A stretch of 64,000 nt of DNA from Leptospirillum sp. (GTDB taxonomy: Bacteria; Nitrospirota; Leptospirillia; Leptospirillales; Leptospirillaceae). This document shows positions 38,150 through 44,373 of this stretch, one piece after another. A program made the position numbers and the translations under genes. The stretch is from the NCBI GenBank assembly GCA_027315205.1, contig DAHUYM010000002.1, positions 1 through 64,000 on the forward strand. The letters are read 5' to 3'. Under the pieces are notes generated by a model. That model was not told where the DNA came from, did no database searches, and saw only the letters and a list, made by a program, of their open reading frames with translations. Each line of letters begins with the position of its first letter. The first letter of the stretch is position 1.

Positions 38150-38809
38150 ATGATCCGGATCATGGGGTTGGGGTGCCGGATGTGCGACCGGCCCCGTTTC
38201 CGTTTTTTCCCGCTTTGTGCGCTCTGTCTTGACCGTTTCGACCGGGAGACGTCCGGGGTGCCGGAACCGCGCATATTCGAGGGAGGACTCGTCCTCCGGC
38301 CCGCGTTTCGATACGAGGGTTTTCCCCGCGCACTTTTTTTGAAAGCCAAATTTTTAGGAGATCGGGCGCTGGCGGATTTTCTGATCTCGGCCGCGTTCCC
38401 GAGGTTTCCTTGTCTTTTCCATGCCCGGGTCCTGATCCCCGTTCCGACCGATCGGGAGCGGCTGATAAGACGGGGAATCTCGTTGCCGGACCGGATGGCG
38501 TACCGTTATTCCCGGTTGTCGGGATGTTCCTGGACCCCGGAAGGAGCCCTTCCGGCAACGTCACTGGAAATCAAGTTTCTGGATCGGAAGGGCCGTTCGG
38601 CTCGAAGGGAAAGGTGGTCGGCAATGGCGATCCGGAAGCCGATCCCGAATGACGGCCTTGTCCTGCTCGACGACCTTGCGACGACAGGGCAGACCCTGAT
38701 TTCGTTTCACGATTTCTGGACCTCGAAAGGGTACGGCATTTCGGGTTCGGCCACGTTGTTCGATGTCCCATCATTTGTTCCTGGATCGGAAACCGGAGCG
38801 GACCCATGA
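38150..38809 (+). CDS. ComF-family phosphoribosyltransferase-like protein
   Basis: 219 residues from ATG 38150; the frame is open to 38033 inside lapAB but only the later start gives the family N-terminus, a zinc ribbon (GCRMCDRPRF, PLCALCLDRF). The C-terminal half has the PRPP-binding motif GLVLLDDLATTGQTL. The DRERLIRRG segment is the usual ComF R-R-G-x-N region, though Asn is not conserved. ComF proteins are linked to DNA uptake but their activity is not defined. ATGA overlap with the helicase gene. Confidence 0.85.
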   Translation: MIRIMGLGCRMCDRPRFRFFPLCALCLDRFDRETSGVPEPRIFEGGLVLRPAFRYEGFPRALFLKAKFLGDRALADFLISAAFPRFPCLFHARVLIPVPTDRERLIRRGISLPDRMAYRYSRLSGCSWTPEGALPATSLEIKFLDRKGRSARRERWSAMAIRKPIPNDGLVLLDDLATTGQTLISFHDFWTSKGYGISGSATLFDVPSFVPGSETGADP

Positions 38810-41025
38810 CCGACGATCGGGACACCGGAGAAAACGTTCTGCCGACCCTGGACGAAAAAGAACAGATTCGCCTCCTCCTGAAGACGCTTTCCGAGTCCCT
38901 TCCCGAATTCGCTCCGAGGGAGGCCCAGAGACGGATGATCGCCCGGGTTTCCGGGGCCTTTTCCCATTGTCGCTCCGAAGGTGACCCGACCCCGTCCGGT
39001 GAAAACCTTCTGGTGATACAGGGTCCGACCGGGACGGGAAAGACGATGGGGTACCTGATCCCGGGACTCGTTTTTGCAAAAAGCCGTAAAAAGACACTGA
39101 TCGTATCCACGGCGACGATTTCCCTCCAGGAGCAGTTGGTCGGAAAGGATTTGCCCCACTTGGACCGGATGTCAGCCACCCCGTTCACCTTCGAACTGGC
39201 AAAGGGCCGGGGGAGATATCTTTGCGAACGGAACCTGATCGCCCTTACCGGTGGGGGTCCGGAGGATGCGTCGTGGAAAAGGCCTCCCACCCTGGGAGAG
39301 ATTCGGATCCTCGACAGGATGAGGGCGCGGTTTGGAAAGGATTGGGACGGCGACCGGGACCACTGGGACGGGGAACTTCCGGAAGGCCTTTGGAGCGGGA
39401 TCGCCAATCAGGCTTCCGCGTGCACTGGAAAAAGATGCGATCATTATGTGGCATGCCCGTATTTTGTCCGGCGCGAAGACCTGAACAGGGCCGATATCAT
39501 CGTCACCAACCACGACCTCGTCCTGTCTGATCTCAGATTGGGGGGAGGCGTCCTTCTTCCCCCGCCCGAGCAGTCCCTTTACGTCTTCGACGAAGGGCAC
39601 CACCTGCCTCGGAAAAGCCTCGATCATTTCCGGGAAGAATCGGATCTCGAGGACGCTCTAGGCTGGATCGAACGGATCCCCCCCACAATCGAACAGGCGG
39701 CGAAACTCACGAATCCTCCCGGGAAGGGAGGCGGTGTCATGGAAGAGGCGGAGACCCTTTCCAGCTCCCTCGCCGAGATCTCCAGGTGGCTGGAGCGCAA
39801 CTGGGCAGGAGCTGTGTTCGAAAGACGATGGAAGGATGTTCCGGTGGCGGGGGACTCTCAGGGAACCGATTCCCTGTTCGGCCCGGACACGGAAGAGTCT
39901 CTATGGCGGTTTCCTGGGGGCCGTCTTCCGGAGTCTCTTTCCGAACCTGTCCGTGTCGGTGGGGCTGCCGCCTTCCTCATGCTTGATCACGTCCGACGGG
40001 CGAAGGACGCTCTTGCCGAAGTGTCCACGACCGCCCAGAAATCGAAGAAAACGACGGAACGGCTGGAAGTCGAGCTTGGTCTCCTGTCCGATCGTCTCGA
40101 AAGGACCAGCGGCCTTCTTACCCTCTTTGGGCGTTCCGACCCGGAGGATGGACCGCCAACGGCACGGTGGGTCCTGTTGCGCCGCAATGGAGGTGTCAGA
40201 ACCCATGTCCTTTGCGCGAGCCCCGTCTGGGCCGGGTCCCTCCTCGAAGAGATTTTGTGGGGCCGGGTTTCCTCTGCAGTTGTGACCTCGGCGACCCTGC
40301 AAACCCTGGGATCGTTCTCGTCGTTCAAGACGAAATCCGGCCTGTCCGCTTTTCCATCCGTGTCGTACGAATCGCTCCCGTCCCCTTTCCGTCTGGAATC
40401 CCAGGGAGTTCTCCGCGTTCCCGCACTAAGGTCCGACCCGACGGATCCTTCGGCGCATACGGAAGAAGTGGCCAATCTACTTCCGGGACTTCTCGACCCG
40501 GCGGAAGGTTCCCTTGTACTCTTCGCGTCGAAAAAGCAGCTGGAAGGGGTTTTCCGGAGGCTTCCCAAGTTATGGAAGGATCGGGTTTTGATCCAGGGGA
40601 CGAAGCCGCGCTCCGAACTGCTCGAAGATCATTCCAGGCGGGTATCGAACGGAGAGGGTTCCGTTCTTTTCGGTCTGTCCTCGTTTTCGGAAGGACTGGA
40701 TCTGAAAGGTCGCCTGTGCACGCACGTTGTGATCGCCAAAATTCCTTTTCCGGTTCCCACCGAACCCATCGACGAAACCCTGGCCGAATGGATCCGGAAG
40801 AAAGGGGGGGATCCCTTCCGGGAAATCTCTCTTCCTGAGGCCGGCCTCCGCCTTGTACAGGCGGCGGGACGGTTGATCCGCGCCGAGACCGATTACGGAA
40901 CGGTGACAATCCTCGACCGTCGTCTGACCGAAAAATCCTACGGATCTCTCCTTTTGGAAAGCCTCCCCCCTTTTCGGCGGGAGGTGACACGATCCGGGAA
41001 TGCCTCGGAAAGGATCAGCCGATGA
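38806..41025 (+). CDS. dinG: DinG/XPD-like DNA helicase
   Basis: 739 residues. Superfamily 2 helicase with Walker A GPTGTGKTMGYL, motif Ia IVSTATISLQEQL, DEAH-type box VFDEGHHL, and C-terminal motifs FGLSSFSEGLDLKG and QAAGRLIRAETDYG. Cysteines at KGRGRYLCER, SACTGKRCDHYVACPYF are placed like the four that hold the 4Fe-4S cluster of DinG/XPD proteins. It should unwind 5'-overhang, R-loop or G4 DNA in repair. The DEGH form of the box is seen in DinG relatives (DEAH usual). Coupled to comF and lysR by ATGA overlaps. Confidence 0.9.
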   Translation: MTDDRDTGENVLPTLDEKEQIRLLLKTLSESLPEFAPREAQRRMIARVSGAFSHCRSEGDPTPSGENLLVIQGPTGTGKTMGYLIPGLVFAKSRKKTLIVSTATISLQEQLVGKDLPHLDRMSATPFTFELAKGRGRYLCERNLIALTGGGPEDASWKRPPTLGEIRILDRMRARFGKDWDGDRDHWDGELPEGLWSGIANQASACTGKRCDHYVACPYFVRREDLNRADIIVTNHDLVLSDLRLGGGVLLPPPEQSLYVFDEGHHLPRKSLDHFREESDLEDALGWIERIPPTIEQAAKLTNPPGKGGGVMEEAETLSSSLAEISRWLERNWAGAVFERRWKDVPVAGDSQGTDSLFGPDTEESLWRFPGGRLPESLSEPVRVGGAAAFLMLDHVRRAKDALAEVSTTAQKSKKTTERLEVELGLLSDRLERTSGLLTLFGRSDPEDGPPTARWVLLRRNGGVRTHVLCASPVWAGSLLEEILWGRVSSAVVTSATLQTLGSFSSFKTKSGLSAFPSVSYESLPSPFRLESQGVLRVPALRSDPTDPSAHTEEVANLLPGLLDPAEGSLVLFASKKQLEGVFRRLPKLWKDRVLIQGTKPRSELLEDHSRRVSNGEGSVLFGLSSFSEGLDLKGRLCTHVVIAKIPFPVPTEPIDETLAEWIRKKGGDPFREISLPEAGLRLVQAAGRLIRAETDYGTVTILDRRLTEKSYGSLLLESLPPFRREVTRSGNASERISR

Positions 41026-41960
41026 CGAACGATCAACTCAGGATTTTCCTGAAAGTGGCCGAGCAGGAGAGCTTCACTCTTGCGAGCGAAATCCTTTTTC
41101 TGACCCAGCCGGCGGTCAGCCTTCAGATAAAAACGTTGGAGAACGATCTCGGGGTCAAGCTGTTCGACCGGAGCGGCCGCCGGGTCAACCTGACCGAAGC
41201 CGGACGCACTTTGCTTCCCTACGCCCGCCGTATTATGGAAGAGATGTCGCATGCCCGTTCCGAGATCACCCGGTTCACCCGCGATTCCCAGGGAACGCTC
41301 AGGATAGGGGCTTCGAACACCATCGGAGTGGCCCTTCTCCCGAAGGTTCTCGCAGGGTTCCGGAAGGATCATCCGTCCATCACCATCCAGTTCTCGATCC
41401 TCAATACCCACCAAATACTCTTCGATCTCAAGACATCCGAGATCGACATCGGTTTCATCGAAGGAGAGGTCGCCCGAACATACGCCCAGAGCGTCGCCCG
41501 TTCCTTCCTGGCACAGGACCGGCTGGTGCTGATCGACAACCGGAAGACGCCTTTGGTGAAGGGCACGCGCATCGCCCTTCCGAATCTCCTCGGGTTTCCT
41601 CTCATCGTTCGAGAACAGGGCTCCGGAACCCGGCAGATCCTGGAGAACGCCCTCCTGGATCACGGGGTTCCGCTCGAACGATTTTCCGTCGCAATGACCG
41701 TGGGGCACACGGGAGTCATCAAAAAACTGGTGGGAATGGGGACCGGGGTGGCGTTCCTGTCCATTCTGGCACTCGAACCCGGGGACATGCCGAGTCTCCG
41801 GGTCGTTTCCGTCGACGGTTTCCAGGCGATCCGGGATCTCTGGATCCTGTTGCCGAAGAGACGCATTTCCAAGACAACAGCCCTTTTGTGTGAACGTGTC
41901 AAGGAAGAGGTTCCTGGACTGATCTCCGGCATGCAGGATCTGGAAAAAAGTGGTCCATAA
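41022..41960 (+). CDS. LysR-family transcriptional regulator
   Basis: 312 residues. N-terminal winged helix-turn-helix (QLRIFLKVAEQESFTLASEI, LTQPAVSLQIKTLE, LFDRSGRRVNLTEAG) and a periplasmic-binding-like effector domain (GTLRIGASNTIGVALLPKVL, DLKTSEIDIGFIEGEV). Effector and targets are unknown; the domain is of CysB/CbbR-like general form. It is unusual in being translated directly from the dinG stop (ATGA), rather than divergent from its target, so it may regulate genes elsewhere or the downstream cluster. Confidence 0.92.
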   Translation: MTNDQLRIFLKVAEQESFTLASEILFLTQPAVSLQIKTLENDLGVKLFDRSGRRVNLTEAGRTLLPYARRIMEEMSHARSEITRFTRDSQGTLRIGASNTIGVALLPKVLAGFRKDHPSITIQFSILNTHQILFDLKTSEIDIGFIEGEVARTYAQSVARSFLAQDRLVLIDNRKTPLVKGTRIALPNLLGFPLIVREQGSGTRQILENALLDHGVPLERFSVAMTVGHTGVIKKLVGMGTGVAFLSILALEPGDMPSLRVVSVDGFQAIRDLWILLPKRRISKTTALLCERVKEEVPGLISGMQDLEKSGP

Positions 41961-42020: not shown

Positions 42021-42959
42021 TTGATCGTCCGCTTGGGTATAGAGCGTCTGGCCGCTTTCCGGTCCCTCGATATCGCCTTGTCACCGGGTCTGAATGTCGT
42101 GACGGGGATGAACGCGACCGGAAAGACCCATTTATTGAGAATTCTGCACGCCGGATGTCTCGATCCGGAGGGGAAAGGTTTCGGGCGAACCCTTGTTCAC
42201 CTGTTCGGTTGGGAAGGTCGTCGATTCGACCGCCTGCTTTTTCGGTCGACCGGGGAGCGTGAAAGTGCCGTGGAATACAATTTCCTGGGGGGATCGCTTT
42301 CGATCCGCTTCAAGAAGACGGCCCATTCTTCCGATTCCGCACAGGTGAGTGTCACGGGCCGGCCGGTCGCGGCCGGGGGTTCCCTACTCTTTCCCGGCTC
42401 CCTCCCCGAAGAGCCCGTATCCGGAAGGATGTCCGAACGGACGGATCCTTCTCTCGGTCCTGCGTTTGCGCGTCTCGAAAAGGCGTTGCCGGGCCGGGTC
42501 GTCCGCCGGAACGGGAGGTACCGGATACGCAACACGAAGGGCGAGCTCGAAATCCCTCTTGCCTCGTCCGGGATCCGTCAGCTTGCCATCCTTTCCCTCA
42601 TGATCCGCCTGGGAACGCTGATCCCCGGCACGGTTTTCCTATGGGATGCCCCTGAGGCCGATATCGGTCCCGCGTTCATGGGGGAAGCGGTCGGGGTCCT
42701 CCTGGAGCTGGCGAAAGCCGGAGTCCAGATCGTGGTGGCGACCAGGGACTATGTTTTTCTGAAGGAATGCGATCTCAGGCGGAAGGACGGGGTTTCCCTC
42801 ATGTATCACAGCCTCTTTCGGGACGACAGGGAAGACCGGATACGGGTCTCTTCGTCGGAGGAGCTTTCGTTCCTTTCCCCCAATCCCGCATCGGAAGCGT
42901 TCCGGAGCCTGTTCGACAGGGACGTGGATCGCGCCCTCAAGAGAACCGGTTCCCCGTGA
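42021..42959 (+). CDS. AAA-type (AAA_15/AAA_21-like) ATPase
   Basis: 312 residues from a TTG start preceded by GAGGGAAACG. ABC/SMC-class ATPase: Walker A GMNATGKTHLL near residue 34, a signature-like ASSGIRQLAILSLMIRLG around residue 193 and a Walker B FLWDAPEADIG around residue 222. The residue after the Walker B aspartate, normally the catalytic Glu (DEPEA), is Ala (DAPEA), so hydrolysis may be slow or depend on another residue. No coiled-coil insert of SMC length and no TOPRIM domain. The stop overlaps the next gene as GTGA, so it is coupled to a small nuclease-like protein. Confidence 0.8.
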   Translation: MIVRLGIERLAAFRSLDIALSPGLNVVTGMNATGKTHLLRILHAGCLDPEGKGFGRTLVHLFGWEGRRFDRLLFRSTGERESAVEYNFLGGSLSIRFKKTAHSSDSAQVSVTGRPVAAGGSLLFPGSLPEEPVSGRMSERTDPSLGPAFARLEKALPGRVVRRNGRYRIRNTKGELEIPLASSGIRQLAILSLMIRLGTLIPGTVFLWDAPEADIGPAFMGEAVGVLLELAKAGVQIVVATRDYVFLKECDLRRKDGVSLMYHSLFRDDREDRIRVSSSEELSFLSPNPASEAFRSLFDRDVDRALKRTGSP

Positions 42960-43474
42960 TCGTTCGCGAGGGATCCTTCCTGTTCGATTTTTCGGCGGCC
43001 GTGTCATGGGAGCGTCTGGACGAAATGGGGCGATCGATTCCCCAGGGAATGGCGATGGCGGATTTTTTTGTGGAGGAACGGTCGCGTCTTCTCCTGATCG
43101 AGGTCAAGGATCCGTTCTCGGAAGCCGGACAGAAATCTTCGAAGCGTCAGGAGGTCGAAAACCTGTTCCGTATCGACCGGCTCATTCACCAGTCGCTGGT
43201 CCCGAAAGCCCGGGACAGTTATACCTATCTGCATCTGATGGGAAAGGACACGAAACCCGTCCTCTATATTGTCCTCATCGGGTTCGACAGGATCGGGTTC
43301 GAGCCGGCGTTCGGGGTCGTCATGAAAGACCGGCTCCTCTCGCGTCTTCGACGCGAAGCCCACCGTCCCTGGATCCGGGATTACATCGCCGATTGCCTCG
43401 TCCTCGATCCGGGAAACTGGTCGTGGACGTTCCCGCAGTATCCGCTGGTCCGGCTTCCGGCGGGAGACGGATGA
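42956..43474 (+). CDS. Small PD-(D/E)XK nuclease-like protein
   Basis: 172 residues from a GTG overlapping the ATPase stop. The core MADFFVEERSRLLLIEVKD gives D36, then E49-V-K51, the D-x(n)-ExK spacing of PD-(D/E)XK nucleases, followed by helices (QEVENLFRIDRLIHQSL) and strands (PVLYIVLIGFD). I do not recognise a named family. Together with the upstream ATPase it looks like an ATPase/nuclease module of the kind found in defence systems, but also could act in repair. Nuclease activity is inference from one motif. Confidence 0.6.
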   Translation: MIVREGSFLFDFSAAVSWERLDEMGRSIPQGMAMADFFVEERSRLLLIEVKDPFSEAGQKSSKRQEVENLFRIDRLIHQSLVPKARDSYTYLHLMGKDTKPVLYIVLIGFDRIGFEPAFGVVMKDRLLSRLRREAHRPWIRDYIADCLVLDPGNWSWTFPQYPLVRLPAGDG

Positions 43475-43671: not shown

Positions 43672-44373
43672 ATGTTTGGAAATTCCGATCGTTCCCCGTA
43701 TTCCGGGAATGTCGTCGACAGTTTGCCCGGCGCGTCTTCGCTGGGGCAGTTTATGGTCAAGGTCTACGGTCTTCTGGGCGTTTCGCTCCTGATTTCGGCC
43801 GGCGCCGCCGTCTGGGGCATGGGACCGGGGCTCCGCATTTTTGGGGGCCATCCGATCCTGACGGCGATCGCGATGTTCGGGACACTGTTCGCTCTCATGG
43901 GGGTGCAGCGCATCCCGGTGGTGAACATTCTCGTCATGTTCTTTTTTGCCGGCCTTATGGGGGCGTCCCTCGGTCCCATGCTCGTCGGGGCGCTGAGCCT
44001 TCGGGGCGGAACCACGATGGTCGCGGACAGCCTTCTGCTTACGACGGCCATCTTTTTCTCCCTGTCCCTGTACGCGCTCGTTTCCCGGAAGAGTTTTTCC
44101 TTCCTGGGCAGTTTCCTCTTCACAGGGCTTATATTGGTGGTGATCCTGTCAGTGGTCCAGATTTTCTGGCATCCCCTGTTTCTTCAGGCGGTCGTTGCCG
44201 GGGCCGGAGCACTGGTGTTTTCGGGACTTATCCTGTTCGACACGGCACGGATCCTTCAGTCACAGGAAGGGGAAATTACGCCCGTAATGGCGGTCGTAAC
44301 CCTGTACCTCGATGTCCTGAACCTCTTCGTTTCGCTCTTGAGGTTATTCGAACTGTTCCGGGGAGAGGAATAA
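43672..44373 (+). CDS. BAX inhibitor-1 / YccA-family membrane protein
   Basis: 233 residues, seven predicted membrane helices (VYGLLGVSLLISAGAAVWGM, AIAMFGTLFALMG, VNILVMFFFAGLMGASLG, and more). The C-terminal GLILFDTARILQSQEG and VTLYLDVLNLFVSLLRLFE are BI-1 family marks; two Asp in these helices form the pH/calcium-sensing pair in known members. AAGGAG precedes ATG 43672. E. coli YccA modulates FtsH; a similar role here is only by family. The frame is open upstream to 43006 without family character. Confidence 0.92.
   Translation: MFGNSDRSPYSGNVVDSLPGASSLGQFMVKVYGLLGVSLLISAGAAVWGMGPGLRIFGGHPILTAIAMFGTLFALMGVQRIPVVNILVMFFFAGLMGASLGPMLVGALSLRGGTTMVADSLLLTTAIFFSLSLYALVSRKSFSFLGSFLFTGLILVVILSVVQIFWHPLFLQAVVAGAGALVFSGLILFDTARILQSQEGEITPVMAVVTLYLDVLNLFVSLLRLFELFRGEE

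Follow-up and report, generated by a model that had tools for sequence, protein, structure and literature searches.

A conserved HEC-02 branch with a predicted hydrolysis-dead ATPase at a fixed chromosomal locus in part of the Leptospirillaceae

The gene pair and its family identity

The window analysed here, a stretch of 64,000 nucleotides from a Leptospirillum sp. contig, carries on its forward strand two overlapping genes, the first of which (42,021 to 42,959; 312 aa, TTG start) encodes an OLD/AriA-type ABC ATPase of the HEC-02A family that is predicted to be hydrolysis-dead, and the second (42,956 to 43,474; 172 aa, GTG start) a PD-(D/E)XK-like nuclease of the HEC-02B family. On direct reading, an RBS-like GAGAGG lies upstream of the ATPase start codon and the two frames share a GTGA stop/start overlap (42,956 to 42,959, forward strand) consistent with translational coupling; the -4 overlap recurs in genomes G001, G005, G004 and G030. 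GC content is about 0.60 and even across the pair region, native to the genome, and promoter and terminator scans of the locus stayed at chance level. A preliminary description of this DNA, made from its letters, had proposed the pair and its overlap, and both ORFs were recovered in their assigned places, as were the motif sites that it had picked out: GMNATGKT at ATPase residues 29-36, DAPEA at residues 209-213, and D36 and E49-V-K51 in the nuclease.

The same description had assigned the pair to an unknown family, a view that has to be abandoned. Both proteins match HEC-02 ('Hma-embedded candidate') in PADLOC, the ATPase through HEC-02A models (PDLC04213, 2.1e-59; PDLC04214, 1.1e-22) and the nuclease through HEC-02B (PDLC04220, 4.1e-50), and the pair type also appears in the BREX literature (PMC12839542). 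The pair is thus a catalogued candidate defence system, and the strength of both family matches, together with the occurrence of the same two genes and overlap in many other genomes, argues that it is not a chance arrangement. The matches cover the window proteins over their full length or nearly so, gene order, overlap and invariant nuclease residues are alike, and on these profile comparisons membership in HEC-02 is solid. Among the characterised PADLOC families, AriA of PARIS comes next for the ATPase (PDLC02980, 2.9e-13); solved AriA chains match the ATPase family profile at 1.7e-7, and the PADLOC match to HEC-02A is far better than that to AriA. Pfam places the ATPase in AAA_21 (3.9e-9), neither Pfam nor NCBIfam returned a family for the small protein, and a profile search of solved structures found no sequence relative of it. 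A search of a library of papers for anti-phage activity data on HEC-02 found none.

An ATPase and a small nuclease in fixed order had suggested a PARIS-like design, and in this respect the likeness is real, with an AriA-related ATPase as the presumed sensor and a separate nuclease. In PARIS, AriA sequesters AriB until a phage protein triggers its release. AriB, however, is a TOPRIM protein, whereas the partner in the window is a HEC-02B protein with a D...ExK site.

Motifs kept and lost

The pair is carried in the window's bacterial family by four genomes of three genera (the window's own, G001, G005 and G004), and these four constitute the family set in what follows. In the ATPase alignment, 38 columns are conserved in 29 or more of the 30 sequences from outside the bacterial family; a set of 41 outside sequences comprises these relatives with plasmid, phage and viral ones added. 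The Walker A motif G-M-N-A-T-G-K-T (residues 29-36; 42,105 to 42,128, forward strand) is kept, K35 being present in 41/41 relatives and in every one of the four family genomes, and G29, N31, T33 and G34 of the P-loop and Asp209 of Walker B are likewise retained in all four. The remaining motifs have changed. Within the ABC signature region (residues 183-188; 42,567 to 42,584) the AEGxRK motif is altered throughout the family set, E183 being replaced by S, P, P and P (in the order window, G001, G005, G004) and K187 by Q in every case. Across the Walker B/D-loop (residues 209-217; 42,645 to 42,671) DEPEANLNP has become DAPEADIGP in the window; the catalytic Glu210 is Ala there (codon 42,648 to 42,650) and A, I, I and S across the four genomes in the same order, and in the D-loop N214 has given way to D, D, D and M and N216 to G in all four. 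The H-loop position 242 (42,744 to 42,746) is His in 41/41 relatives and Arg in 4/4 family members, and E210 and K187 are also present in every one of the 41. The DAPEA stretch was therefore correctly located as Walker B in the preliminary description but is not an intact motif, since all 41 outside relatives have DEPE and the catalytic Glu, its second letter, is lost. A segment beside the conserved KEML stretch is missing from the family ATPases as well.

Based on these motifs the ATPase of the window's bacterial family is predicted to be hydrolysis-dead, and the new element described here is a conserved HEC-02 branch with such an ATPase. The other HEC-02 members examined have canonical ATPase motifs and many of them lie in BREX loci, whereas the window's branch has neither attribute. 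The four family members form one clade in the ATPase tree (100/100) and in the nuclease tree (100/98). This single clade, together with K187Q, N216G and H242R being common to all four genomes, indicates that the change in the ATPase is ancestral and has been maintained. The structural model of the ATPase (pLDDT 84.5) has SMC/Rad50/PtuA-like heads as its best PDB folds. The best-conserved blocks among the four family pairs are ATPase residues 287-299, ATPase residues 235-247 and nuclease residues 73-96; the first of these, a C-terminal stretch (42,879 to 42,917, forward strand), is 77% invariant among the four ATPases, as against 28% for the whole protein, and is a possible dimer or nuclease-binding surface.

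The putative active site of the nuclease has been preserved. Asp36 (codon 43,061 to 43,063) is invariant in 26/26 relatives and 4/4 family genomes, E49 and K51 of Glu49-Val50-Lys51 (43,100 to 43,108) are invariant too, and 11 of the 12 conserved nuclease columns are retained in all four family genomes, including D22, D36, E40, E49, K51, R86 and W139. In the predicted structure (pLDDT 88.9), strands 37-40 and 45-51 carry the D36 / E49-x-K51 site and are followed by a long helix (73-94). The leading Foldseek matches of this model include the small subunit of R.BspD6I and Hjc resolvases, but they are weak (E 0.1-0.4, best 0.11) and non-significant, so that it is motif, conservation and topology that underpin the PD-(D/E)XK assignment. 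The D/ExK hairpin of the model agrees with the original proposal of a PD-(D/E)XK-like partner in place of a TOPRIM one.

The locus in the Leptospirillaceae and relatives in BREX operons

The pair lies in a run of housekeeping genes, and the order dinG - lysR - ATPase - nuclease - bax1 - ilvE - polA is identical in the window's genome (G000) and the three other carriers. The upstream neighbours encode a dinG-type helicase (38,806 to 41,025) and a LysR-type regulator (41,022 to 41,960), both conserved, and the downstream neighbour a Bax1-inhibitor-like membrane protein ('bax1', 43,674 to 44,373, named by eye and placed by synteny), all on the forward strand. Both frames of the pair are intact in the four genomes, with the -4 overlap in each. 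Between two genomes of the same genus dN/dS is approximately 0.23 for the ATPase, 0.10 for the nuclease, 0.10 for lysR and 0.13 for dinG, values that point to purifying selection on both genes of the pair, and dN is 0.22 for the ATPase against 0.09-0.11 for lysR, dinG and the nuclease.

Both genes are absent from 14/14 g3 and 3/3 g4 genomes searched within the same bacterial family, and this absence, taken with the constant locus in the four carriers, indicates that part of the family inherits the pair as a fixed unit of the chromosome. Four g3 genomes have lysR and bax1 on one stretch, with lysR inverted at the site, and in the g4 genome that was read dinG stays in place and the gap is occupied by a GGDEF gene. 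One g3 locus (L032, 8709-10298) holds two IS605/TnpB-like ORFs, named by eye, between lysR and bax1. The presence of such unrelated genes at the g3/g4 gap, a GGDEF protein in one case and IS-type genes in the other, indicates that the site of the pair is variable within the family. Both dinG and lysR were considered as partners in the system, but since dinG is retained without the pair in g4 and lysR occurs without it in g3, they are treated here as neighbours and not as proven parts. A tree of polA did not resolve the point at which g4 branches. No defence island was found at the pair locus, and BrxC was not found in any of the 21 genomes searched, that of the window included.

Outside the bacterial family, a scan of GTDB genomes yielded 31 ATPase relatives in Pseudomonadota, Acidobacteriota, Planctomycetota, Chloroflexota, Bacteroidota and other phyla, and a search of viral contigs a single relative. 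Neighbours were counted at 28 of the 31 loci, one near-copy having been left out and two loci being cut by a contig end. An HEC-02B-like ORF lies directly 3' of the ATPase in 24 of these 28 (the overlap being exactly -4 in 20 of the 24), which upholds the fixed order proposed in the preliminary description, and one more of the 28 has a frameshifted nuclease copy. HEC-02 models match 25/25 aligned nucleases and 28/28 aligned ATPases. Two further PADLOC models appear to carry swapped labels, because each matches the protein type of its partner: PDLC04146 (labelled HEC-02B) matches 28/28 ATPases and PDLC04145 (labelled HEC-02A) matches 7 nucleases.

At least half of the relatives with sufficient flanks sit within BREX operons. 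At 11 loci grouped by the sizes of their neighbours, there are 11 neighbours matching BrxC and 10 matching PglX, and the remaining 11 loci have further matches to PglX, PglZ, BrxC and BrxA. An annotated Methylomonas plasmid has the pair between brxC and pglX of a BREX-1 system, and on the Polaromonas plasmid pPNAP01 (L085, 8001-9620) the pair adjoins pglX within a BREX-2 (pglW/pglX/pglZ) operon. A recent survey of BREX (2026) independently describes pairs of an OLD-ABC ATPase and a PD-(D/E)XK nuclease within BREX loci and regards them as backup modules built like PARIS (PMC12839542). The domain pairing is the same, and relatives of the window's pair lie, as on the two plasmids, inside such loci; the window's pair stands instead alone in its housekeeping run, in a genome in which BrxC was not found.

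Possible modes of action and alternatives

Pairs of an OLD-ABC ATPase and a nuclease are widespread immune sensors in which the role of ATP hydrolysis is unsettled. One of the closest described systems is WonAB, encoded by WASA-1 of Vibrio cholerae, an abortive infection system that stops translation (PMC12137116). Compared by description, both are two-gene operons of an OLD-ABC ATPase and a PD-(D/E)xK nuclease, although WonA carries extensions at its C terminus and has a longer stretch from the P-loop to Walker B than the window's ATPase. WonA is required for the stability and toxicity of WonB, the substitutions E300A and H333A abolish protection, and inactivation of the ATPase leads to loss of WonB (PMC12137116). 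The likely counterparts of E300 and H333 are E210 and H242, which have been lost in the window (to A and R), and the WonA results raise the prospect that with a dead ATPase, as predicted here, the ancestral function might be lost altogether. A precedent is provided by BcGajA of Gabija, an OLD protein reported not to hydrolyse ATP, for which regulation by nucleotide level has been proposed (PMC10568477), although GajA differs from the window's pair in its effector, a TOPRIM nuclease fused to it, and in having a partner that is UvrD-like. The archaeal OLD protein Cran1, which has a role in the cell cycle but apparently none in defence, is unaffected when one or the other Walker B glutamate is replaced, so that loss of the motif is not in itself proof that hydrolysis is lost.

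The explanation that we favour, to which we give a probability of about 0.55, is that the ATPase binds ATP without hydrolysing it and, as a sensor or scaffold, controls a live nuclease, the pair having its origin in a mobile defence system. By analogy with PARIS and WonAB, the ATPase of that ancestral system would have sensed infection and then allowed the nuclease to act. In the present branch, ATP-bound ATPase would serve as a clamp or scaffold in complex with the nuclease, keeping it bound and stable, and the nuclease would be freed when a partner binds or when nucleotide levels fall, not by a cycle of hydrolysis, possibly in response to a virus or to stress. It is also possible, though we put this forward tentatively, that the pair was domesticated in one family as an ATP-locked pseudo-ATPase/nuclease switch, in which ATP would be bound and never hydrolysed, with Arg242 and Gln187 forming a static nucleotide site of a new kind, and in which depletion of nucleotide or a cellular ligand would release the nuclease.

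It seems unlikely to us that the pair is an ordinary HEC-02 anti-phage system whose substituted residues (e.g. Arg242) still permit enough ATP turnover for it to act, like WonAB or PARIS, by abortive infection. Membership in HEC-02, the embedding of relatives in BREX, the faster evolution of the ATPase relative to its neighbours, which would suit a sensor, and the tolerance of Walker B changes in Cran1 all accord with this view, but signature, catalytic Glu, D-loop and H-loop have been replaced jointly in all four family genomes while E210 and H242 persist in all 41 relatives, and neither BrxC, in the 21 genomes searched, nor a defence island at the locus was found. We would give similarly long odds to a domesticated housekeeping module (for DNA/RNA quality control, repair or the cell cycle) from which the defence role has gone. 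This alternative, foreshadowed in the preliminary description as a resident quality-control function, is strengthened by the conserved housekeeping locus, a single core site near dinG and polA in three genera, and native GC, purifying selection and the Cran1 precedent are in keeping with it; against this, the absence of the pair from every g3 and g4 genome searched makes it dispensable at the level of the family, dinG and lysR persist without it, and it has no conserved functional partner outside the locus. That the pair is a decaying defence system with an ATPase already dead, on its way to being lost, is very improbable: several catalytic motifs and the segment beside KEML have indeed gone, but both reading frames remain open in all four carriers, which span three genera, dN/dS is well below 1, and the derived residues Q187, G216 and R242 are shared alongside an invariant nuclease site.

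With hydrolysis residues dropped, and ATP-binding residues and the nuclease site kept, the favoured reading would make this a natural and long-kept branch in which binding is separated from hydrolysis. Such a branch allows a direct test of whether sensing needs hydrolysis, and it would represent a BREX-associated module turned into a fixed chromosomal gene pair.

Three of the outside loci merit separate mention. In a Magnetococcales locus (L038, 11020-11358) the nuclease is shortened by an apparent frameshift and its ATPase is intact and canonical. At L056 (4953-9613) an HEC-02A-like ATPase is followed at once, with no nuclease between, by a 1188-aa ORF of PglX-like size. On the Pseudanabaena galeata plasmid pPg_01 (L087, 5432-13589) an HEC-02-like pair lies amid genes for GrpE, Hsp70, DUF1257, DUF2997 and an AAA ATPase, a different context that is possibly chaperone-linked.
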